Positions 308 through 29,566 of a stretch of DNA of 64,000 nucleotides are shown here, one piece after another (the stretch's first letter is position 1; every line of letters begins with the position of its first letter). The DNA is taken from positions 1-64,000 of the forward strand of contig JAGPCY010000038.1 of assembly GCA_018057825.1 (NCBI GenBank), given 5' to 3'. Made by a program: the position numbers and the translations under genes. The notes under the pieces are model-generated. The model ran no database searches, was not told the origin of the DNA, and worked only from the letters and a program-made list of their open reading frames with translations. Origin of the DNA: Kofleriaceae bacterium (lineage in GTDB: Bacteria; Myxococcota_A; Polyangia; Haliangiales; Haliangiaceae).

Positions 308-1282
308 ATGCTGAACGGCCACGCCCCCCAGTCGCACGCCGATGACGCTGACGCGGTCACGCTCCAGCTTGCCCCTGGCCGCCGTCCCACCTTGGCCTAC
401 GTGGCGCCGCCGCCGATGGCGATGCCCGAGCCACCGCCGCAGCTCGGCGACTACACGGTGCTCGGGCCCCTGGCCCGGGGCGGGATGTGTGGGGTCTACC
501 TCGGCCAGCACCGCCACACCGGCGAGCGGGTCGCCCTGAAGCTCCTCGACCCGCGCTGGCTCGACAGCCCGGGCGCCGTCACGCGCCTGCTCGGCGAGTA
601 CGCCCTGCGCCGGCGGATCCACCACGACGGCGTGGTGGCGATCCGCGCCGCGCACCTGTCGCCCGACGGGCAACCGTACCTGGTGATGGAGCTCCTCGAC
701 GGCGAGGACCTCGGCGCGCTGCTCGAGCGCGGCCGCCTGACGATCGGCGCCACCGCGGCGCTCGGGGCGCAGGTCGCCGACGCCGCCGCCGCGCTGCACG
801 CGGCCGACATCATCCACTGCGATCTCAAGCCCGAGAACATCATGCTCCTGTACCGCGATGGGCTGGCCGGCTGGCCCGAGGCCAAGCTGCTCGACCTCGG
901 GGTCGCGCGCGAGCGCGGCGTCGCGCTGCCGGAGGTCGCGGGCACGCCGGCCTACATGGCGCCGGAGCAATGGCAGGGTCGACCGAGCGCGGCGTCCGAC
1001 GTCTACGCCCTGGGCTGCACGCTCTACGAGCTCCTGACCGGGGTCGCGCCCTTCGAGGGCACGGTCCTCGAGGTCCGGCTGGCCCACCTCGAGGCCCAGC
1101 CGGCGCCGGCGTCGCACCGCCGCGCGCTGCCGGCCAGCCTCGACCACCTGATCCTGCGGTCGCTGGCCAAGGAGCCGCGGCTGCGGCCGCGCATGTCCGA
1201 GCTGACCAGCGCGCTGACCGACCTCGCCTTCGCCCATCCGCCGGGGGCGCGCGCCGAGGGCGTGCTGGCCGCGGTGGCCTGA
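308..1282 (+). CDS. Eukaryote-type Ser/Thr protein kinase, soluble
   Basis: This is a cytoplasmic Hanks-type kinase of about 324 residues that transfers phosphate from ATP to Ser/Thr of unknown targets. The glycine-rich loop is present (LARGGMCGVY), followed by the VALKLL lysine. The catalytic loop is HCDLKPEN, the DFG equivalent is DLG, and the activation segment ends GTPAYMAPEQ. No membrane segment or sensor domain follows the kinase. The ATG at 308 is chosen because GAGG lies just upstream and the kinase fold needs nothing before it; an in-frame start at 164 would add 48 unlikely residues. Such kinases are numerous in myxobacteria. Substrate unknown. Confidence 0.93.
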   Translation: MLNGHAPQSHADDADAVTLQLAPGRRPTLAYVAPPPMAMPEPPPQLGDYTVLGPLARGGMCGVYLGQHRHTGERVALKLLDPRWLDSPGAVTRLLGEYALRRRIHHDGVVAIRAAHLSPDGQPYLVMELLDGEDLGALLERGRLTIGATAALGAQVADAAAALHAADIIHCDLKPENIMLLYRDGLAGWPEAKLLDLGVARERGVALPEVAGTPAYMAPEQWQGRPSAASDVYALGCTLYELLTGVAPFEGTVLEVRLAHLEAQPAPASHRRALPASLDHLILRSLAKEPRLRPRMSELTSALTDLAFAHPPGARAEGVLAAVA

Positions 1283-1874: not shown

Positions 1875-4724
1875 CTACTCGAAGACCATGATCGAGGCCG
1901 CCCAGGCCTCGCCGCGCGCGAGGGCCGCAGCGCGCTCCGCCGCCACCGCGACCGCCGGCGCCGCCCCCGCCTCGATGCGGGCGCGGATCGCCGCGAACAC
2001 CGGGCCGGCCGCGACATCGGGGATGTCCTCGGCGGGCGCGATCACCGCGCGCGCCCCCGCGGCCAGGAGCGCGTCGGGCAGACTCCACCGCGCGTGGCGC
2101 AGCGGCGCGACCGCCGCGGCGCGACAGGCCGCGAGCACGACCACCGGCGCGCCGGCCAAGCGGACCTGGCGCAGGTCGGCGGCGGTCAGGGCCCATCGCC
2201 CGTCGCCGTCGGGAGACAGGGCGAGGAACGAGGCGTCGGCGCGGCCCAGGTCGACGCGGCCGTGGACGTGGAGCTCGGCGTAGGTCGCGTCGGCGAGGGC
2301 GCGCAGGACCGCGGTCGGGGTCGCGGCGCCGCCGCGCAGCGCGGTGGTGTCGACGGGCACGGCGACCGGCGCCAGGGCCGGCAGGCCGAGGGCCGACGGC
2401 GGAAGGGCGTCGCCGACCACGAGCCGACGCGGCGAGGCGACGGCGGCGCGGCTCGGCCCGCGCACGAAGGACCACGGGCGATCGGGCGGCACGAGTCCGG
2501 CCTGGCCGTGGAGCGGCGGCCGCGCCACCACCGCGACCTGGGCGCAGCCGTCGAGGTGCGCGCGCAGCCGCGGCGAGGTCAGCGCGGCGTCCCCGCGCTC
2601 GCCGGCCCGCGCCCCGCGCGGATCGATCGCGACCGCGACCGCGGTCGCCCGATCGCGCGACACCACCAGCGCGCAGGTCGCGGGCGCCGGCATGGCGACC
2701 TCGTCGGTGGCCAGGGTGACGACCTCGGCCCAGGCGCCGGCGGCCGCCGCGCGATCGATCGCGGCGCCGTAGACCCACGCTCGGACCTCGGCGGCCTCCT
2801 CGTCGGCCGACGGCAGGGCCCGCAGCGCGGCGGCCGATGGCGCGGCCGCGCCGTCGTCGACGAAGGTGGTCAAGACCGCGGCCATCGGCGGCGGCAGCGC
2901 GGCGGCGGTCAGCCAGGCCCGGGCCCGCACCCGATCGTCGTCGGCGCCGGTGGCCCGCGCGCGCTCGATCATCGCCACGACCTCGGCCGGGCTCGGGGCC
3001 TGACCGCAGGCATCGACCGCCGGGACCGCGTCGGCCGGCCAGGCCTGACCGCGCTCGACGGCGATCATGAGCCCGCCGAGCTGGGCGAAGCGGCGGGTCG
3101 CGCAGTCGCGCGCCTCGGCCCGGGCGGCGACCTCGACGAAGGTCGCCGCGGCCACCGCCAGCCGCCCCCGGCTGCGCTCGAGATCCGCGAGGTAGGCCAG
3201 CGCGTGATCCTCGAGGCGGCTGTCGCCGGCGGCGCGCAGCCCCCGCACCGCCTGTTCGGCGAACTCGGTGGCCTCGACGAAGCGGCCCTGACGGCCGTAC
3301 AGAGTCGCGACGTCGAAGGCGAGCTGGGCGCAGCGATGGCCGTAGCGACGATCGTCGCAGCCGTCGAGGGCGGTCCGCAGGGTCGCCTCGGCGCCGTCGA
3401 GGGCGCCGGCCGCCACCTGGGCCCGAGCCCGCTCGCGCTCGACCGCCAGCTCGAGCCAGGGATCGCCCGCGGCGACCTGGCGCGCGAAGGCCAGCTCGGC
3501 GCCGAGTTGACCGGCCAGGTTGAGCGCCCCGAAGCGCAGATCGGCCAGCGCCGGATCGTCGGCGCCGACGGAGGACACGAGCGACGTCACGGCCGCCAGC
3601 GGCGCGCGCCGGAGCAGGACCTCGCGGTAGGCCCGCGCCACCGGCGCCCGGACCCGGTAGTCGTACGCGAGGGCCCGGGTCCAGGCCGCGGTCGCGTCGT
3701 CGGCGCCGGCCGCCCGATCGAGGGCGCGCGCCAGGGGCTCGAGGGCCCGGACCTCGTCGACCGAGGTGGCCGTGCGCACGGCCTCGAGGAAGTAGCCGCG
3801 GGTCAGCCCCGGGTGGCGCTCGAGCGCGGCGGCGTCGAGCACCGGGCCGGTGCGATCGATCATGGCCTCGGCGGCGGCGAGGAAGCGCGCGGTGGTGGCG
3901 GCGCGGTCGGCCTGGGCCGAGGCCAGGGCGGCGGCGCGCGCGGTGGCCTCGTCGGACCACCCCGGCTCGCCGGCAGCGGCGACCAGCGCCAGCTCGGCGC
4001 CGGCGGTGGCGGCGTAGCCCAGCTCGCGCAGCGCCAGGGCGCGGTTCCAGCGGGCCGCGGTCGAGCTCGGCTCGCTCGCCAGCGCGCGATCGGCGGCGTC
4101 GAGGGCGGCGTCGGGGTCGCCCTCGACCAGGGCGAGGGCCGCCAGATCGGCGTCGCGCCGCGGGCCGGGCGGCAAGGCGTCGGCCAGCGCGCGCGCTCGT
4201 CGCACGTCGCCGGCCGCCAGGTGAGCGGCGAACAGGGCCGACGGGTCGCCGGCCCGCTCGACGGCGGCCAGGGTCGCGAGGGAGATCGACTCCCCGCCGG
4301 CCCCGGCCCGCTCGACCGCGTACGGTCGATGCGCGGCGAACGCGCCGCCGGTCAACCGGGCCTCGATCGCGCGCTCGGGCGCCAGGGCGAGCGCCGGCGC
4401 CGGCGCCGCGCCGCGCCGCGGCCACACCATCCACGCCGCCGCCGCCAACGCGGCGGCCGCGGCCGCGCCGATCGCGACCCGCGCCGGCCAGCGCCGCGGA
4501 CGCGGACGTCCGACGACGGACGGCCCGGGCACGACCTCGGCCAGCGCCGGGGCGCCGGCGCGCCGGCCCAGGGCGACCTCGAACCCGATCAGATCGCCGA
4601 GCTCGCGCTGGCAGCGCGCGCAGGTCGCCAGGTGCGCCAGGGCCGCGGCCTCGTCGTCGCCGGCCTCGCCGTCGAAGTAGCGGGCGGTCGCGGCGCACGG
4701 CTCGAGGTCGGCGTCAGCGCTCAT
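1875..4724 (-). CDS. Zinc-finger anti-sigma-like / TPR / CHAT-domain protein
   Basis: This is a 949-residue protein with three parts. The N-terminus has an anti-sigma zinc finger (H31, C35, C38 in HLATCARC). A single membrane helix follows at about residues 75-95 (IGAAAAAALAAAAWMVW). A long alanine-rich helical region of TPR type then leads into a C-terminal CHAT domain. CHAT is a caspase-like cysteine protease fold; the expected dyad is visible as H819/H821 (HVHGRVD) and C867 (VVVLAACRAA). The start overlaps the end of the upstream sigma-factor gene by 11 bp, so the two are translationally coupled. I infer that the N-terminus binds the sigma factor and that the CHAT domain may process something on the other side of the membrane or in release. 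Proteolysis is not demonstrated. Confidence 0.87.
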   Translation of the reverse strand: MSADADLEPCAATARYFDGEAGDDEAAALAHLATCARCQRELGDLIGFEVALGRRAGAPALAEVVPGPSVVGRPRPRRWPARVAIGAAAAAALAAAAWMVWPRRGAAPAPALALAPERAIEARLTGGAFAAHRPYAVERAGAGGESISLATLAAVERAGDPSALFAAHLAAGDVRRARALADALPPGPRRDADLAALALVEGDPDAALDAADRALASEPSSTAARWNRALALRELGYAATAGAELALVAAAGEPGWSDEATARAAALASAQADRAATTARFLAAAEAMIDRTGPVLDAAALERHPGLTRGYFLEAVRTATSVDEVRALEPLARALDRAAGADDATAAWTRALAYDYRVRAPVARAYREVLLRRAPLAAVTSLVSSVGADDPALADLRFGALNLAGQLGAELAFARQVAAGDPWLELAVERERARAQVAAGALDGAEATLRTALDGCDDRRYGHRCAQLAFDVATLYGRQGRFVEATEFAEQAVRGLRAAGDSRLEDHALAYLADLERSRGRLAVAAATFVEVAARAEARDCATRRFAQLGGLMIAVERGQAWPADAVPAVDACGQAPSPAEVVAMIERARATGADDDRVRARAWLTAAALPPPMAAVLTTFVDDGAAAPSAAALRALPSADEEAAEVRAWVYGAAIDRAAAAGAWAEVVTLATDEVAMPAPATCALVVSRDRATAVAVAIDPRGARAGERGDAALTSPRLRAHLDGCAQVAVVARPPLHGQAGLVPPDRPWSFVRGPSRAAVASPRRLVVGDALPPSALGLPALAPVAVPVDTTALRGGAATPTAVLRALADATYAELHVHGRVDLGRADASFLALSPDGDGRWALTAADLRQVRLAGAPVVVLAACRAAAVAPLRHARWSLPDALLAAGARAVIAPAEDIPDVAAGPVFAAIRARIEAGAAPAVAVAAERAAALARGEAWAASIMVFE

Positions 4725-5307
4725 CGCGCCCTCCGAGGAGCCCGCGGAGCTGCCGCCGCGCCCGCAGCACCCGGGTGCCGACGGTGGCCACCGGCACGCC
4801 CATGGCCGCCGCGATCTGCTTGTAGCTCTGGCCCTCGAAGGCGAACCGCTCGAAGGCGTCGCGCAGCTCGGGCGCGAGCTGGGTCGCGGCGGCCCGGATG
4901 TCGGCGGCGGTCAGCGCGTCCCACCACGCGGCGTCCTCGACCGGCGGGGCCACCGCCGGGGGCGCGGCGTCGAGCTCGACCTGGACCGGGGCGCTGGCCT
5001 TGGCCCGCACGCGATCGATGAACAGGTTCTTCATGACCCGGGCCATCCATGCCGCGTGGTTGACGTCGGCGGGCAAGGCGTCGAAGCGAGCGACGGTCTT
5101 CTCGAGGACATCTTGCACGAGATCTTCCGGATCGAAGTTGCCGCGACAGAGCTTGCGGGCCAGGGACGACAGGAACGCGTGGTGCTCGCGGGTCAACGCC
5201 GCCAGGCGACGTCGATCGCGGAGTTCATCGTGTTCGACGGAGACGGGCACCGTTGTTCCCGGAAGATCCTCGGACCACCCTGGCCGGGGGAGCCGGTTTG
5301 GGAACAT
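4714..5307 (-). CDS. ECF-type RNA polymerase sigma-70 factor
   Basis: This is an extracytoplasmic-function sigma factor of about 197 residues. Region 2 contains FDPEDLVQDVLEKTVARF and the NLFIDRVR helix. Region 4 contains LRDAFERFAFEG and a helix-turn-helix QIAAAMGVPVATVGTRV. The ATG at 5307 is preferred over the far upstream in-frame ATG at 5385, which would extend over the divergent lipoprotein promoter. The gene overlaps the downstream zinc-finger/CHAT gene by 11 bp. This is the classic sigma/anti-sigma arrangement, so its activity is probably held in check by that membrane partner. Confidence 0.93.
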   Translation of the reverse strand: MFPNRLPRPGWSEDLPGTTVPVSVEHDELRDRRRLAALTREHHAFLSSLARKLCRGNFDPEDLVQDVLEKTVARFDALPADVNHAAWMARVMKNLFIDRVRAKASAPVQVELDAAPPAVAPPVEDAAWWDALTAADIRAAATQLAPELRDAFERFAFEGQSYKQIAAAMGVPVATVGTRVLRARRQLRGLLGGRDER

Positions 5308-5374
5308 TAGCCCTGCGGTCCGTCGTACACATGACCCCAGCGCGCCGATCGACCTGGCGCGGGAGCGCTTTCCC

Positions 5375-5842
5375 ATGAGAACCAATCACTTCGCTGTCAC
5401 CCTGGGTCTCGCCGTCGCGGCCGCCGGCTGCGTCGAGACCGACACCGACCTCTCGACGGTCACCCAGGCCGTGTGTACCGGCACCACCTCGGCGAGCGAG
5501 CCGATGATCGGGGCCAGCCAGTGGACCGGTCAGCTCCCCGGCGACGTCGTCGGCGCCGCCGCCCAGCAGGTGTGGCTGCTCGAGGCCAACAACTCGCCGA
5601 ACTTCCCGGCCGGCAGCTTCACGCTGTACCAGGTCGACACCGTCAAGAAGAGGGTGAAGTGGCGCTCGACCCTCACGGCGACTCAGCGCACGACCGCGGC
5701 CGGCCTGGCCGCCGCGCGCAACGGCATCACGGTGTTCGGTCGGCTACCGCCGCCGCCGCCGTTCCCGCCGATCGATCTGTGGAAGTGGGCCGACACCATC
5801 GTCGATGACGCGATCGTCGGCCGCGCGGTCCTCGAGGAGTAG
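5375..5842 (+). CDS. Predicted lipoprotein, myxobacterial type
   Basis: This 155-residue secreted lipoprotein of unknown function has an N-terminus MRTNHFAVTLGLAVAAAGC with a lipobox AAGC. The stretch after the cysteine (TVTQAV) resembles the short segment seen after the lipobox in many myxobacterial surface proteins. A proline run (PPPPPFPP) lies near the end. The ATG at 5375 has GGGAG nine bases upstream. It is divergent from the ECF sigma factor, with only 67 bp between the two starts, so they may share a control region. Confidence 0.72.
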   Translation: MRTNHFAVTLGLAVAAAGCVETDTDLSTVTQAVCTGTTSASEPMIGASQWTGQLPGDVVGAAAQQVWLLEANNSPNFPAGSFTLYQVDTVKKRVKWRSTLTATQRTTAAGLAAARNGITVFGRLPPPPPFPPIDLWKWADTIVDDAIVGRAVLEE

Positions 5843-5890: not shown

Positions 5891-7861
5891 ATGAGCATGG
5901 ATCCCCGCCGGTGGCGCAGCGCCGGCGCCGCCGCCGCCGCCCCCGACCTCGCGCCGCCGAGCCCGGGCAAGGTGACCTTGACCCAGCGGCTGACGCGCGC
6001 GACCCGGCCGCCGTCACCGGCGCCGTCGGCCGCGCCGCCGAGCCTGCAGGCCGATCGCGGCGCGGTGCTGCCGCTCGAGCCCTTCGCGCTCCACGAGATC
6101 GCGGCGGCCGGCGTCGGCGATCGCGCCGAAGGCCTGCCCCACCTGCCCGCGCTGCAGGCCAGCTTCGGCCACCACGATCTGTCGGAGGTGCGGGCCCAGA
6201 TCGGCGGCCCGGCCGCCGGCGCCACCGCCGCTCTCGGCGCCCGGGCCTACGCCTACGGCGACGCCGTGGCCTTCGCGGCGCCGCCCGACCTGCGCCTGGC
6301 CGCTCACGAGGCCGCCCACGTCGTCCAGCAGCGCGGCGGCGTGCGCCTCGACGGCGGCGTCGGTCGCGTCGGCGATCCCTACGAGCTGCACGCCGACGCC
6401 GTCGCCGACCGCGTGGTCCGCGGCGAGTCGGCCGAGGATCTCCTCGACACCCTCGCCCACCGCGGCGCCGCCGGCGGCCCGGCGGTGCAGCGCGAGGCCA
6501 ACGCGGTCGGCATCGGCGCCGGCTGGCGCGAGGACCGCGAGGATCGCGTCGCCCTCGCCGCGCGGCTGAGCGACGCCCTCGGACACCCGGTCGAGCCCGA
6601 CGGCGTCGACGCGGCGATCGAGGAGTTCCAGGCCACCCACGGCGCCGAGATCGATCTGGTCGAGACCCACTCGGACGCCATGGCCCACGGCTTCGACGGC
6701 CCGGTGACGCCGTTCCCCGAGGCCCGCCCGGTCGATCCCGGCCGCGACGCCAGCGACGAGGACCGCGCCGCCTACCGCACCGAGCTGCGCGCCTGGTCGC
6801 GCCGGCGCACCACCTGGCTGCGCGCGCGTCGGCCGACCACCGCCGACGATGGCACCCGCTCCGAGCGCGGCGAGCTACGCCCCGACGACGCGACCCATAT
6901 CGCCCTGGCCAACGCTTGGCCGCGGCGGTTCTTCGGCGCGCTCTTGCAGACCGCCGAAGACGGTTACGACTACATCAAGAGTCAGGTCGTCGCTCGCGGC
7001 CTGCCGTTCAACGATCAGCGGGTCAACATCGTCGGCATCCGTGGCATGCAGGGCGGCACCTTGCACACCGACGTCGGCGTCGGGCTGGCGGCGTCGACCT
7101 TCGACGATACGTTCTTCGTCATGTGCCTCGACGAGGGCGGCGCCAAGATGATCCGCGAGTTCCGCGGCACCACCGAGCCCGGCGGCCGCAGCAGCGAGTT
7201 CCGCCGCGAACACCCCGATGAGTACGGCCCGACCGAGCAGAACGCCACGGTCCGCGACCACGACGTCGAGACCATGGAGGCCGACCAGCAGGTCGTCTAC
7301 CACTTCACCACCACCGACACCTCCAAGCTCGGGCGCCCGACCTTGACCCCGCGGGTCGAGACCGCCGACGGCGATCCCCTGGTGGTCGCGCCGCATCGCA
7401 CCGGCGCGGCCACATCCACCGAGGCCGACGCCACCCACGACGGCGACGCGGATGCCCTGGCGGTGCCGCCGGTCGACGGCGACCCGCGGCTCCACGATCG
7501 CCTGCGGACCCGCCGCGGCCGCGAGGTCCTCGACCGCAGCCTCGGCATCGCGATCCACAGCGGTGGCGCCGACGACACCGTCGACGCCGAGTCGACCGGC
7601 TGCCAGGTCGTCCAGGGCGACTGGTACGGCGACTTCATCGCCACGATCCAGCGCGGCTTGACCGCCGCGCGGGTCCGCGCCGGAGAGCGCGTCCGCCCGG
7701 GTCACCCGGCCACCGAGGGTGACGTGCTGTATTCGCTGCTCCAGGCCAGCGACCTGGCCCGCGACGAGGCCACCATGCGTGCCGCGATCGCCGGGATGCG
7801 CGCGCCGCGCCAGGAGACGGGGGCCGCGGTCGACGGAGACGGCGGCGCCGCCGCGGGTTGA
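5891..7861 (+). CDS. DUF4157 (eCIS-associated) protein with C-terminal H/GCQ hydrolase-like domain
   Basis: This is a 656-residue modular protein. Residues 85-165 match the DUF4157 domain, also called the eCIS core domain, as seen in myxobacteria: [23 protein letters not shown] and the metalloprotease-like [12 protein letters not shown] (HEXXH at 139-143). DUF4157 is often found in proteins linked to extracellular contractile injection systems and in polymorphic toxins. The C-terminal third contains H556 and C571 in IHSGG and STGCQVV, followed by W and F. This resembles the H-x(14-17)-[ST]-x-G-C active site of L,D-transpeptidase-like domains. It may therefore be a cell-wall-acting or toxic enzyme with a DUF4157 delivery or processing module. 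No injection-system structural genes are in the window. ATG 5897 is an alternative start. Confidence 0.8.
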
Positions 7862-8131
<270 letters not shown>

Positions 8132-8196
8132 CGCTGCCGGGCGGTCGATCCGTCCCCACCCGACGGGCATCTCGTGCGAAATACCGGCGCGCTACC

Positions 8197-10758: not shown

Positions 10759-11802
10759 ATGTTCGGCTACGTCCTGGATGATCGCTTCATCCATCACCTC
10801 GCGCCTGCCGGCCACCCCGAGCGTCCGGCCCGGCTGGCCGCGGTGCGCGACGCGATGGCCATGGCCGGGGTCGAGGGCCGCGGCCTCGCGGTGCCGATCC
10901 GCGCCGCCACCGACCTGGAGCTCGGGCGGGTCCACGGCGCGGCCTACCTGGCCGAGCTCGCCCGCACCGTGCCCGGTGCCACTGGCTGGCTCGACGGCGA
11001 CACCTACTACTCGCCGGAGACCTGGGACGTCGCGCTGGCCGCGGCCGGCGCCGTCACCGAGCTGACGCTGCGGGTCTGGCGCGGCGAGCTGACCTCGGGA
11101 CTGGCGCTGGTGCGTCCGCCCGGGCACCACGCCGAGCGCGATCGCGCGATGGGCTTCTGCTTGCTGAACAACGTCGCGGTGGCCGCCGCCGCGGCCCGCG
11201 CCGCGGGCGCCGCGCGCGTCGCGGTCCTCGACTGGGATGTCCACCACGGCAATGGCACGCAGCAGATCTTCTGGGACGATCCGACGGTGATGTACCTGTC
11301 GGTCCATCAGTTCCCGTTCTACCCGGGCACCGGCGCGCCCGACGAGGTCGGCGGCCCCGCGGCCCGCGGCGCCACGGTCAACGTCGGCCTCCCAGCCGGC
11401 TCGGGCGATCGCGACTACCTGGCCGCGTTCGATCACGTCCTCGGTCCGGCCCTCGAGCGCTTCGCCCCTGAGCTCATCATCGTGTCGGCCGGCTTCGACG
11501 CCCACCAGGCCGATCCGCTGGCCAGCATGAAGCTGTCGCGCTACGGCTTCGCGCGGCTCGCGGCCCGCGTCCGCGCCGCCGCCGATCGCCTGTGCCACGG
11601 CCGCTGGGTCGTGGCCCTCGAGGGCGGCTACGATCTCGGCGGGCTGGCCGAGGGTGTGACCGCGGCGCTCGACGCGCTGACCCTGCCGGCGGCGGCGCTG
11701 CCGGCGGTGACGCCGATCGCGCTGGCCGACGCCAGCCCCGAGGCGGTGCGCGCGATCGACGCGACCCTGGCCGCGCTGGCCGCGACCGGAGCCCACGCGT
11801 GA
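10759..11802 (+). CDS. Histone deacetylase family (acetyl-lysine/acetylpolyamine hydrolase) protein
   Basis: This 347-residue zinc-dependent deacetylase of the arginase/HDAC fold shows all signature blocks. GHPERPARL is the N-terminal signature and PPGHHAERDRAMGFC carries the catalytic His pair at 123-124. VLDWDVHHGNGT and SAGFDAHQADPL provide the Asp and His zinc ligands. LEGGYDLGGLAEG carries the catalytic Tyr loop. Bacterial members act on acetylated small molecules or proteins; the substrate here is unknown. The last codons overlap the GTG of the following Ser/Thr kinase by 4 bp, so the two are co-translated. A second, more distant family member lies at 45618-46538. Confidence 0.95.
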   Translation: MFGYVLDDRFIHHLAPAGHPERPARLAAVRDAMAMAGVEGRGLAVPIRAATDLELGRVHGAAYLAELARTVPGATGWLDGDTYYSPETWDVALAAAGAVTELTLRVWRGELTSGLALVRPPGHHAERDRAMGFCLLNNVAVAAAAARAAGAARVAVLDWDVHHGNGTQQIFWDDPTVMYLSVHQFPFYPGTGAPDEVGGPAARGATVNVGLPAGSGDRDYLAAFDHVLGPALERFAPELIIVSAGFDAHQADPLASMKLSRYGFARLAARVRAAADRLCHGRWVVALEGGYDLGGLAEGVTAALDALTLPAAALPAVTPIALADASPEAVRAIDATLAALAATGAHA

Positions 11803-13364
11803 CCGCGCCCCAGCCCGCGCCCCAGCCGAACGCCCCCGTCGCGTTCGGCCAGCGCTACTGGCTCCTGCGGCCGCTGGCCACCGGCGGCATGGCCGAGATC
11901 TACCTGGCGCGCCAGTCGGCGATGTCGGGCTTCGACAAGGACGTGGTCATCAAGCGGCTCAAGCCCGAGCTGGCCACCGATCCGCGGATCGTCGAGATGT
12001 TCCTCGACGAGGCCCGCATCGGCGCGGTGCTCAACCACCCCAACATCGTCCACGTCTACGACGTCGACGAGGAGGGCGGCATCCCGTACATCGCGATGGA
12101 GTACATCGTCGGCGAGGAGCTGAACGAGCTGTGCCGGCGCGGCCTGGGGCTCGGTCGGTTCTTGCCCCTCGAGCACGCGGTGGAGCTGATCCGCCAGGCC
12201 GCGGCGGGCATGGGCTACTTCCACGCCAAGCGCGGCGCCGAGGGCACGACCTTCGACGGCCAGAGCCTGGACATCGTCCACTGCGACATCTCGCCGACCA
12301 ACCTGCTCGTCACCGAGGACGGCTTCCTCAAGATCATCGACTTCGGGATCGCGCGCTCCAAGGATCAGCGGCCGCGCGAGGAGGGCATGATCCCCGGCAA
12401 GCTGTCGTACATGTCCCCGGAGCAGGCGACCCGCGGCGTGGTCGACTACCGCTCGGACCTCTTCTCGCTCGGCGTGGTCCTCTACGAGATCACCGTCGGG
12501 CGCCGCCTGTTCAAGGGGCCGGCCAACGAGGTCGTGCGCCGGCTGACCAGCGGCGAGATCGAGGCGCCGACCTTCGTGCGCCGCGACTTCCCGCCCCAGC
12601 TCGAGGCCATCATCATGCGCACCCTCGAGCGCCACCCCGAGAGCCGCTACCCGAGCGCCTACGATCTGGCCGACGACCTCGAGGGCTTCTTGCGCGAGGC
12701 CCGGCTGCACTCGGGCCCGGTGCGGATCGCCCGCTACCTCGACGAGCTGGCCGAGGCCGCCGGCGGCCAGCGCCGCCCCGAGCTGATCGCCGAGTCGGAC
12801 CTGGCGAAGATCGACGAGGATCTCGACTTCGACGGCCAGATGTTCGACGGCTACCGCGCCGCGCCGCGGAGCGAGTGGGACGAGTACCAGGAGGCCGACG
12901 CCGAGGTCGCCGCCGCGCTTGGGCTCGAGCTCGAGCAGCTCCGGCTGATGCGCACCCCGGTGCCGCACCGCAACGGCGATGGCGAGCTGGCGCTGCCCCT
13001 GCCGGCGCCCCGCGACTCGGCGCCGGGACCGTCGAGCTGGGGCCGCCCGCCGGAGAACTCCGACATCACCGCGCGCCAGGTGCGGCACGATCCGGCCGCC
13101 CTGCGCGAGCCGGCGTTCGGGCCAGGGCCGACGCCGTCACCGGGGCCGACGCCGTCACCGTCGCCGGGGCTGGCGCCGACGGGGGGGCCGGTCGGGCTGG
13201 CGCCGGGGCCGACGCCGACACCGTCGCCGGGGCTGGCGCCGACGGGGGGGCATGGACCGCTTGCGCCGATCGCCCCGTCGGAGCGGCGCAACCTGGCCCC
13301 GCTCATCATCATCTGCGTGTCGGCCGGCATCGCGCTCGGGATCTTGGTCTCGCTGCTCCTGTGA
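11799..13364 (+). CDS. Membrane Ser/Thr protein kinase with tail anchor
   Basis: This 521-residue kinase begins at a GTG overlapping the deacetylase stop. The kinase domain covers about residues 15-290: LATGGMAEIYLA loop, VVIKRLKP lysine, HCDISPTNLLV catalytic loop, IDFGIARSK, and GKLSYMSPEQ. A disordered Pro-rich linker includes a duplicated DNA segment near 13125-13250. The protein ends in one hydrophobic helix (LIIICVSAGIALGILVSLLL), so the kinase is tail-anchored and faces the cytoplasm. The HCDISPTN variant of the catalytic loop is common among myxobacterial Pkn proteins. Confidence 0.94.
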   Translation: MTAPQPAPQPNAPVAFGQRYWLLRPLATGGMAEIYLARQSAMSGFDKDVVIKRLKPELATDPRIVEMFLDEARIGAVLNHPNIVHVYDVDEEGGIPYIAMEYIVGEELNELCRRGLGLGRFLPLEHAVELIRQAAAGMGYFHAKRGAEGTTFDGQSLDIVHCDISPTNLLVTEDGFLKIIDFGIARSKDQRPREEGMIPGKLSYMSPEQATRGVVDYRSDLFSLGVVLYEITVGRRLFKGPANEVVRRLTSGEIEAPTFVRRDFPPQLEAIIMRTLERHPESRYPSAYDLADDLEGFLREARLHSGPVRIARYLDELAEAAGGQRRPELIAESDLAKIDEDLDFDGQMFDGYRAAPRSEWDEYQEADAEVAAALGLELEQLRLMRTPVPHRNGDGELALPLPAPRDSAPGPSSWGRPPENSDITARQVRHDPAALREPAFGPGPTPSPGPTPSPSPGLAPTGGPVGLAPGPTPTPSPGLAPTGGHGPLAPIAPSERRNLAPLIIICVSAGIALGILVSLLL

Positions 13365-28627: not shown

Positions 28628-29566
28628 GTGACGCCCCCGACCGACGCGCTGGCCCCGGCGCTCGACGACGAGCCCGCGTCGGCGGCCCTGACCGCGCGCC
28701 AGTGGGCGCTCCACGTCGGCCTGTTCATCGCCGCCTGCGCGACCACGACCTGGGCCGGCGGGCCGGCCTTCGCCGCCACGCTCATGGCGATCCTCCTGAC
28801 CCACGAGATGGGCCACTACATCGCCGCGCGTCGCTTCGGCCTCGACGTCTCGCCGCCGTACTTCATCCCGCTGCCGCCGCAGATCTCCCTCGGCACGCTG
28901 GGCGCGGTGATCCGCATGCGCCAGCCGATCCAGGATCGCGATCAGCTCCTGATCGTCGGCGCCGCCGGCCCCCTGGCCGGCCTGGTGGTCGCGGTGCCGT
29001 GCTTGATCATCGGCCTGGCGCTGTCGGACACCGGCCCGATCGCCCCCGGCTCGGTCCTCGAGGGCACCTCGCTCTTCTACGGCGCGGTCAAGCTCGGCAT
29101 CTTCGGCCGCTGGCTCCCGGCCGGCACCGTCGACGTCCAGCTCCACCCCATGGCCTTCGCCGCCTGGTACGGGCTCCTCGTGACGATGATCAACCTGGCG
29201 CCGATCGGTCAGCTCGACGGCGGCCACGTCATGCGGGCCTGGCTCGGTGAGCGCCACGAGCGGCTGTCGGCGATCTTCCACGGCGCGCTGCTCGCGGTCG
29301 GCGCGATCGCCGGCGGCGTCCTGGTGGTCCAGGCCCGGGGCGCCGGCCTGGGCTGGGTCGATGCCGGGACCTACGCCCTGTCCGGAGTGCTGCCGTGGCT
29401 GGTGTGGGCGGCGGTCTTGTCGGCGCTGCGCCGCATGGCCGGCGACGAGTATCATCCCGAGGTCCACGGCCCACCGCTGTCGCCTGGGCGCCGGCGCCTG
29501 GCCCAGGCCATGGTCGTGGTGTTCCTGCTCCTGTTCGTCCCGGTGCCGCTGCGCCCCGCCCTATGA
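28628..29566 (+). CDS. Site-2-protease family (M50) membrane metalloprotease
   Basis: This 312-residue integral membrane zinc protease has HEMGH at 59-63 and the NLAPIGQLDGGH motif that supplies the third ligand, both within hydrophobic segments. There are about six membrane spans. S2P proteases cut transmembrane anchors such as anti-sigma factors. The GTG start is followed by an acidic soluble N-tail. It is the first gene of a tightly overlapping six-gene run to 34467. Confidence 0.92.
   Translation: MTPPTDALAPALDDEPASAALTARQWALHVGLFIAACATTTWAGGPAFAATLMAILLTHEMGHYIAARRFGLDVSPPYFIPLPPQISLGTLGAVIRMRQPIQDRDQLLIVGAAGPLAGLVVAVPCLIIGLALSDTGPIAPGSVLEGTSLFYGAVKLGIFGRWLPAGTVDVQLHPMAFAAWYGLLVTMINLAPIGQLDGGHVMRAWLGERHERLSAIFHGALLAVGAIAGGVLVVQARGAGLGWVDAGTYALSGVLPWLVWAAVLSALRRMAGDEYHPEVHGPPLSPGRRRLAQAMVVVFLLLFVPVPLRPAL

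Follow-up and report, generated by a model that had tools for sequence, protein, structure and literature searches.

The 64,000-nucleotide stretch of Kofleriaceae bacterium DNA analysed here (contig JAGPCY010000038.1; hereafter the window) carries, between positions 1875 and 5842, genes for an extracytoplasmic function (ECF) sigma factor, a membrane anti-sigma factor with a protease-like CHAT domain, and a small companion lipoprotein (Table 1). The gene upstream of the anti-sigma gene encodes both ECF regions, Sigma70_r2 and Sigma70_r4_2, each above the Pfam cut-off, and its end at 4714 falls within the start of the anti-sigma gene with an overlap of 11 bases. This agrees with the first-pass annotation of the locus, in which an ECF sigma gene was the partner of the fusion protein. 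The sigma factor probably starts at the TTG at 5196 rather than at the start of its open reading frame (ORF) at 5385, because an ECF-type promoter sits at 5233-5260 on the minus strand.

Table 1. Features of the sigma/anti-sigma/lipoprotein locus, in window positions
Feature	Position	Strand	Basis
DdvA-like transmembrane anti-sigma factor (zinc finger, membrane helix, TPR, CHAT), 949 aa	1875..4724	-	ATG at 4724; ORF, Pfam, model, fold and sequence match
Zinc-finger anti-sigma motif, residues 10-38 (C10, H31, C35, C38)	4611..4697	-	Pfam and conservation
Single membrane helix, about residues 82-100, N side positively charged	4425..4481	-	Model and alignment
Helical TPR region, residues 149-675, including Cys pairs C456/C465 and C541/C573	2700..4280	-	Pfam, model, alignment
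CHAT domain, residues 763-936; H821 at 2262-2264, C867 at 2124-2126	1917..2438	-	Pfam, fold, alignment
ECF sigma factor, proposed TTG start at 5196, open frame extends to 5385	4714..5196	-	ORF and Pfam; start inferred
Companion lipoprotein, 155 aa, lipobox Cys19, divergent from the sigma gene	5375..5842	+	
ECF-type promoter ahead of the companion, GGGAAC-N15-CGTCGTA	5300..5327	+	
ECF-type promoter ahead of sigma/anti-sigma, GGGAAC-N15-CGTCGAA	5233..5260	-	

The anti-sigma protein, its match to DdvA and its relatives

CHAT (PF12770) was recognised in the window protein with a Pfam E value of 2.5e-13 (50.6 bits against a cut-off of 24), while TPR_12 and zf-HC2 were found below the cut-off, with E values of 4e-4 and 0.0063. 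The zinc-finger motif H31-x3-C35-x2-C38 was invariant in all 58 relatives possessing the region, and zf-HC2 scored above the Pfam cut-off in the relatives at loci L066 (E 1.9e-10), L067 (3.1e-9) and L074 (6.7e-7); as judged from the sequences, the zinc finger of the window protein is genuine despite its sub-cut-off score. Structure prediction from an alignment of 17 full-length copies (A1) gave a predicted local distance difference test score (pLDDT) of 83.3 and a predicted template modelling score (pTM) of 0.78. A single polypeptide joining a zinc finger, a membrane helix, TPR repeats and a CHAT domain with its His and Cys had been described earlier, and both the order of the domains and the two residues, H821 and C867, were borne out.

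A sequence search with the window protein found DdvA of Myxococcus (PDB 8ROT/8RW5) as its sole match, with a phmmer E value of 1.9e-59 over residues 8-949. DdvA, which carries the PDB title "transmembrane anti-sigma factor", was also the best PDB match (Foldseek E 2.4e-36, 29% identity); and in the VIA fold comparison it reached Z 38.1 with 810 aligned and a root-mean-square deviation of 5.3, while Craspase reached at most Z 23 and separase at most Z 19. Other branches of the family match DdvA as well (L077, E 1.9e-134; L055, E 1.2e-123; L035, E 1e-126). The window protein is almost certainly a DdvA-like anti-sigma factor. The DdvS/DdvA-type architecture is already known and the window system belongs to that family; the architecture is not new, since the structure of DdvA has been solved.

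An initial search of 95 genomes had given matches in 16 of them, with four in the window's own genome. Scanning the genome collection with A1 then yielded 52 loci, all titled as myxobacteria or delta-proteobacterial metagenome bins; 12 loci repeating the same contigs were dropped, leaving 80 open frames. A phylum search, scored on three candidates per genome among the matches listed, gave 3 out of 282; known cases escape this search, and no absence is read from it. The first-pass annotation had proposed a search for the same fusion and its synteny, which proved to be widespread in myxobacteria.

Among the 58 rows of the family with a zinc finger, an ECF sigma gene ends no more than 30 bp upstream in 53. 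At L016 and L050 the upstream distance to the sigma gene is 623 and 717 bp, the companion gene lying in between, and no upstream sigma gene was found for L041, L024 and L030, the last of which is cut by the contig end. None was found either for any of the 11 full-length rows without a zinc finger, one of which (L049) starts at a contig end. TPR-CHAT sisters with the full dyad and with neither zinc finger nor upstream sigma gene were seen at L044, L048, L049, L051, L055, L056, L057, L064, L068, L072 and L075.

Membrane orientation and the CHAT dyad

In all 44 rows with both zinc finger and CHAT, lysine plus arginine counts were higher on the N side of the membrane helix (mean 4.6 versus 1.8 per 15 residues), which by the positive-inside rule places the zinc finger in the cytoplasm and the TPR-CHAT part outside. 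Past the helix and besides C867, cysteine occurs in at least 20% of rows in six columns only, and these form three pairs: 456-465 (both cysteines in 64 rows, neither in 3, one only in 0), 541-573 (58, 6 and 0) and 684-727 (63, 0 and 0). Cysteines that are always paired fit disulfides and hence a location where the surroundings are oxidising; they fit a metal site less well, because the pairs have been lost independently of each other. The tree places the loss of 541-573 as one event at the base of one clade, and that of 456-465 as one event among the tree rows, with two more rows with this loss outside the tree. On charge and cysteine pattern, the TPR-CHAT part of the window protein is very probably periplasmic.

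A CHAT domain in the periplasm could not reach the zinc finger or the sigma factor to cut either directly, so that a cut on the outside followed by intramembrane proteolysis would be required. In its simplest version, the first-pass annotation implied a cytoplasmic CHAT domain directly cutting the anti-sigma domain or other cytoplasmic targets, which would suit the habit of most characterised CHAT proteases (SAVED-CHAT; Craspase, PMC10028731) of acting in the cytoplasm. Such a cytoplasmic arrangement is made very improbable by the charge bias in 44 of 44 rows together with the three co-retained cysteine pairs, by the lipoprotein neighbour, and by the title of the closest solved structure. What stood of the earlier idea of a sigma-release device with its own protease is that the anti-sigma factor carries a protease-like domain beside a sigma gene, whereas the charge bias and cysteine pairs put that domain beyond the inner membrane, on the side opposite the sigma factor.

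H821 and C867 were invariant in all 64 rows covering both, in a CHAT region where 10 of 187 positions are invariant and the mean pairwise identity is 49%; the dyad was also retained in 11 rows without zinc finger or sigma. In the predicted model H821 follows the strand 815-819 and C867 the strand 861-864, and a His and then a Cys following such strands is the usual order in the CHAT/caspase-like fold. The invariance argues for catalysis without proving it, and across the family it bears on whether CHAT works as a protease. Whether CHAT catalysis takes part in sigma release appears, from the sequences, evenly balanced.

The CHAT domain could also be a sensor or scaffold without a catalytic part, the first cut being made by an independent DegS-type periplasmic protease. 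This would suit both the CHAT-less anti-sigma relatives that still adjoin a sigma gene and the low confidence of the model just past C867 (below 50 for residues 868-877); it sits poorly with a dyad kept in 64 of 64 rows at that level of identity, including rows without the anti-sigma domain, and we hold it to be rather unlikely.

The companion lipoprotein and the facing promoters

When the companion alone was used as query against the open frames of the fetched loci, it matched L002 (E 1e-11), L016 (5.5e-6), L062 (0.003), L050 (0.0067) and L032 (0.022), and all five matches adjoin the sigma or anti-sigma gene on the opposite strand. A model built from ten companion copies (A2), with signal peptides removed for this test, gave nine further matches at E <1 on the fetched loci. 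All nine fall between -450 and 700 bp from a TPR-CHAT gene, an interval that holds 22% of comparable frames, the limit of 700 bp for "near" having been picked after the loci had been seen; five of them have E <0.02 and three others E 0.08 to 0.7, while the ninth (L050, plus strand, E 0.23) is likely to be a false hit. When 36 whole genomes were searched with A2, 12 matches reached E ≤0.01: one lies elsewhere (G011:C194), and the other 11, of which nine are seeds of the model, adjoin a DdvA-like gene. A match was present in 10 of the 13 genomes with a DdvA-like gene, one of them being the misplaced match, and in none of the 23 genomes without.

Companion relatives accompany exported TPR-CHAT proteins as lipoproteins, and the gene directly after CHAT in Myxococcaceae and Archangiaceae often encodes a secreted protein of about the same size. 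No companion was found at the same syntenic place in the CHAT-less loci L066, L067 and L080. A lipoprotein gene was also observed after some of the zinc-finger-less TPR-CHAT sisters.

Neither Pfam nor NCBIfam held a family that matched more than one companion member or reached E <0.02. The predicted companion model (pLDDT 73.8) consists of three strands, a helix, a short strand and a helix, and a fold search of the PDB returned nothing at E ≤0.001. Cys34 is invariant in the ten aligned copies besides the lipobox Cys19, and these copies have no invariant partner cysteine. The companion was considered as a free-standing copy of the pseudo-CHAT half, with which it shares a similar strand order and an RPP end, and this was rejected at an hhalign probability of <1% for all groups. 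As to a single family comprising all companion groups, pair scores reached up to 92% with signal peptides and 0.2 to 65% without them. The groups are connected by weak hidden Markov model hits, which we take as no more than a lead. The companion models also match, weakly, a protein of the SAVED-CHAT defence operons that has no signal peptide; with this SAVED-CHAT operon group as query, its neighbours were found no better than chance (3 hits, 1 near by the same 700-bp limit).

The motif GGGAA[CG]-N14-17-CGT[CA] was read by eye from the regions upstream of the companion and then tested on both strands. Perfect copies stood on the companion strand at 6 of 10 loci, where 0.12 would be expected, a count that is partly circular because the motif was read from these regions, and on the opposite strand at 7 of 10, where 0.05 would be expected; when one mismatch was allowed, the motif was found in 9 and 8 of the 10 loci, against 1.9 and 1.8 expected. 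Both copies in the window are GGGAAC-N15-CGTCG, and the motif has the -35/-10 shape of ECF promoters. Of 55 sigma genes, 8 have a perfect copy upstream (0.5 expected) and 32 a copy with at most one mismatch (8.8 expected), both expectations coming from mononucleotide shuffles; an earlier scan of the 55 with NGAAC-N14-18-CGT had stayed at chance level (4 and 4 versus 3.6 and 3.6). Over the whole genome a stricter form of the motif had 6 matches versus 5 for the reversed control, and only the placing of two of the six is telling. Since both divergent transcripts start with an ECF-type promoter, the sigma factor probably drives both its own operon and the companion gene.

We think it likely that the companion lipoprotein is a working part of the switch. 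The linked lipoprotein and its facing promoter are the lasting new point of this analysis and a probable third component; a published account of the link was not found, no literature search having been aimed at the lipoprotein by name. It offers a concrete candidate for how a DdvA-class switch reads the cell envelope. More tentatively, the three parts may form one system, made up of a sigma factor, a membrane anti-sigma factor whose caspase-like domain is periplasmic, and a small partner dedicated to CHAT and expressed from a facing sigma-dependent promoter; the partner would be a ligand, inhibitor or substrate of CHAT, and one partner family might act in envelope signalling as well as in phage defence among myxobacteria.

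The proposed switch, the defence link and known systems

Taken as a whole, the reading we lean towards is a DdvS/DdvA-type membrane switch with a built-in CHAT site-1 cut, site-2 release and feedback through the lipoprotein; we infer every cleavage step, the signal and the role of the lipoprotein. In the resting state, the zinc finger on the cytoplasmic side would keep the ECF sigma factor at the inner membrane, with TPR-CHAT in the periplasm acting as the sensor. An envelope signal, perhaps via the neighbouring lipoprotein, would alter TPR-CHAT, whereupon the CHAT dyad would cut the anti-sigma factor near the membrane on the periplasmic side as a built-in site-1 protease, possibly with one partner cutting the other. 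A site-2 protease of the M50/RseP type would then cut within the membrane and set the sigma factor free, and the free sigma factor would activate its own operon as well as the lipoprotein gene behind the facing promoter, closing a feedback loop. M50 genes are present in the genome, one of them within the window at 28766-29305.

Several observations weigh against this reading. Sigma-linked anti-sigma proteins that stop before CHAT occur at L048, L066, L067, L074, L080, L100, L101 and L102 (the last three in extra stretches), so that some lineages control the sigma factor without CHAT. Two of these CHAT-less copies, L048 (9756-11446) and L100 (10774-12728), have a zinc-finger-less TPR-CHAT gene within about 2 kb; apart from these separate genes, no CHAT remnant was found beside the CHAT-less sigma-linked copies. 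Because the zinc-finger-less proteins keep the dyad, it may serve a purpose besides sigma release, and their charge bias is 4 for, 4 against and 1 tie (9 of 11 have a clear helix). The cysteine co-losses are few events, one per pair on the tree for 541-573 and 456-465. The companion stands beside 34 of 55 full-length CHAT rows, a count that includes many seeds and some weak hits, and is thus not universal. Finally, the abstract of the DdvA structure paper is said to call the His-Cys site incomplete, in which case catalysis may be absent. The natural variants without zinc finger or without CHAT are ready-made controls. A further CHAT-less family copy, L099 (G353:C190:115336-116757), has one TGA within the matched stretch, and L100 has an open frame (11331-12728) at the place of L099.

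The first-pass annotation had also pointed to the role of CHAT proteases in defence. For DdvA itself this holds, since DdvS controls an island of CBASS (cyclic oligonucleotide-based antiphage signalling system) and CRISPR (clustered regularly interspaced short palindromic repeats) genes in M. xanthus, according to PMC12288465. It holds also for one sister clade: at L104 (7700-18477, Myxococcus sp. CA023) a row of genes encodes a sigma factor, a DdvA-like protein, a 230-aa protein, a C25 peptidase, SAVED-CHAT, a CD-NTase and E1-E2, and is a CBASS operon headed by an ECF sigma/DdvA-like switch. L076 likewise has SAVED-CHAT, L054 and L081 have CHAT with nSTAND1, and L061 has a C25 gene; L104 (= L077) and these four, together with L059, form one clade (Shimodaira-Hasegawa approximate likelihood ratio test, SH-aLRT, 100) in which the 541-573 pair is lost, as in DdvA. 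The window copy falls in a different clade and has kept the pair. At the window the defence link found no counterpart: the six neighbours scanned with Pfam (a protein kinase, DUF4442, eCIS_core, one without family, a histone-deacetylase-like protein (Hist_deacetyl) and a second kinase) include no CBASS, CRISPR or other defence gene, and a search of the window genome for the SAVED domain gave no match, the positive control in the same search also being without match. That the window system is a phage-defence trigger like DdvS/DdvA, its sigma factor activating CBASS or CRISPR genes elsewhere in the genome, is suggested by the M. xanthus and L104 cases; the separate clade and the defence-free neighbours speak against it, as does the SAVED search, with its failed control, and we consider it improbable.

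The eCIS_core (DUF4157-type) protein at 5891-7861 (+) begins about 50 bases past the companion, and the two may be co-transcribed. A long short-unit repeat follows at about 7860-8170, whose frames read differently, one as SVSVSV. In the window's own genome, 70 eCIS_core matches were found (70 places; upstream stretches L142-L201). A promoter of the window type, GGGAAG-N15-CGTCGTA, was seen at L123 (1501-1528), about 30 bases before another eCIS_core gene of the same genome (from 1559). Across 60 eCIS_core upstream regions GGGAA[CG]-N14-17-CGT[CA] was present on the coding strand of 11, compared with 1 for the opposite strand and 0.85 in shuffled sequence; these motifs mostly have N17 and a CGTAnnAT-like end, and so probably represent another promoter type.

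The envelope switch proposed here has its nearest known relative in DdvA/DdvS of Myxococcus xanthus (PDB 8ROT, 8RW5, 8RLZ), with full-length homology, a zinc-finger anti-sigma domain, a membrane helix, TPR-CHAT with His and Cys kept, and an ECF sigma partner. It differs from DdvA in retaining the 541-573 cysteine pair, where DdvA has W and T in the phmmer alignment, and in lacking CBASS or CRISPR genes among the neighbours tested; its lipoprotein gene on a facing promoter may be a further difference. The authors of the DdvA structure reportedly proposed autoproteolysis in trans followed by RseP. PMC4374960 describes DdvA as the inhibitor of the ECF sigma factor DdvS, which acts on its own promoter, and gives the signal of DdvA as unknown. 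In the Craspase system (Csx29, a TPR-CHAT protein, with Csx30 and a sigma factor) a TPR-CHAT protease also acts on an ECF sigma inhibitor (PMC10028731), but protease and inhibitor are separate proteins there, switched by the Cas7-11 RNA complex, and identity to the window protein is about 10%; no Cas7-11 partner was found beside the window TPR-CHAT gene among the neighbours tested (six by Pfam, plus the companion lipoprotein). CalpL/CalpT/CalpS likewise releases an ECF sigma factor from its anti-sigma factor by a protease (PMC11417357), although there it is a Lon protease with a SAVED sensor, driven by a cyclic nucleotide. CHAT proteins near ECF sigma genes are a feature shared with the ECF54 group (PMC8999054, section 11). 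The proposed sequence of an outside cut, a membrane cut and sigma release is that of RseA/DegS/RseP, with the difference that the site-1 protease is a separate protein there and in the window system would lie within the anti-sigma factor itself.

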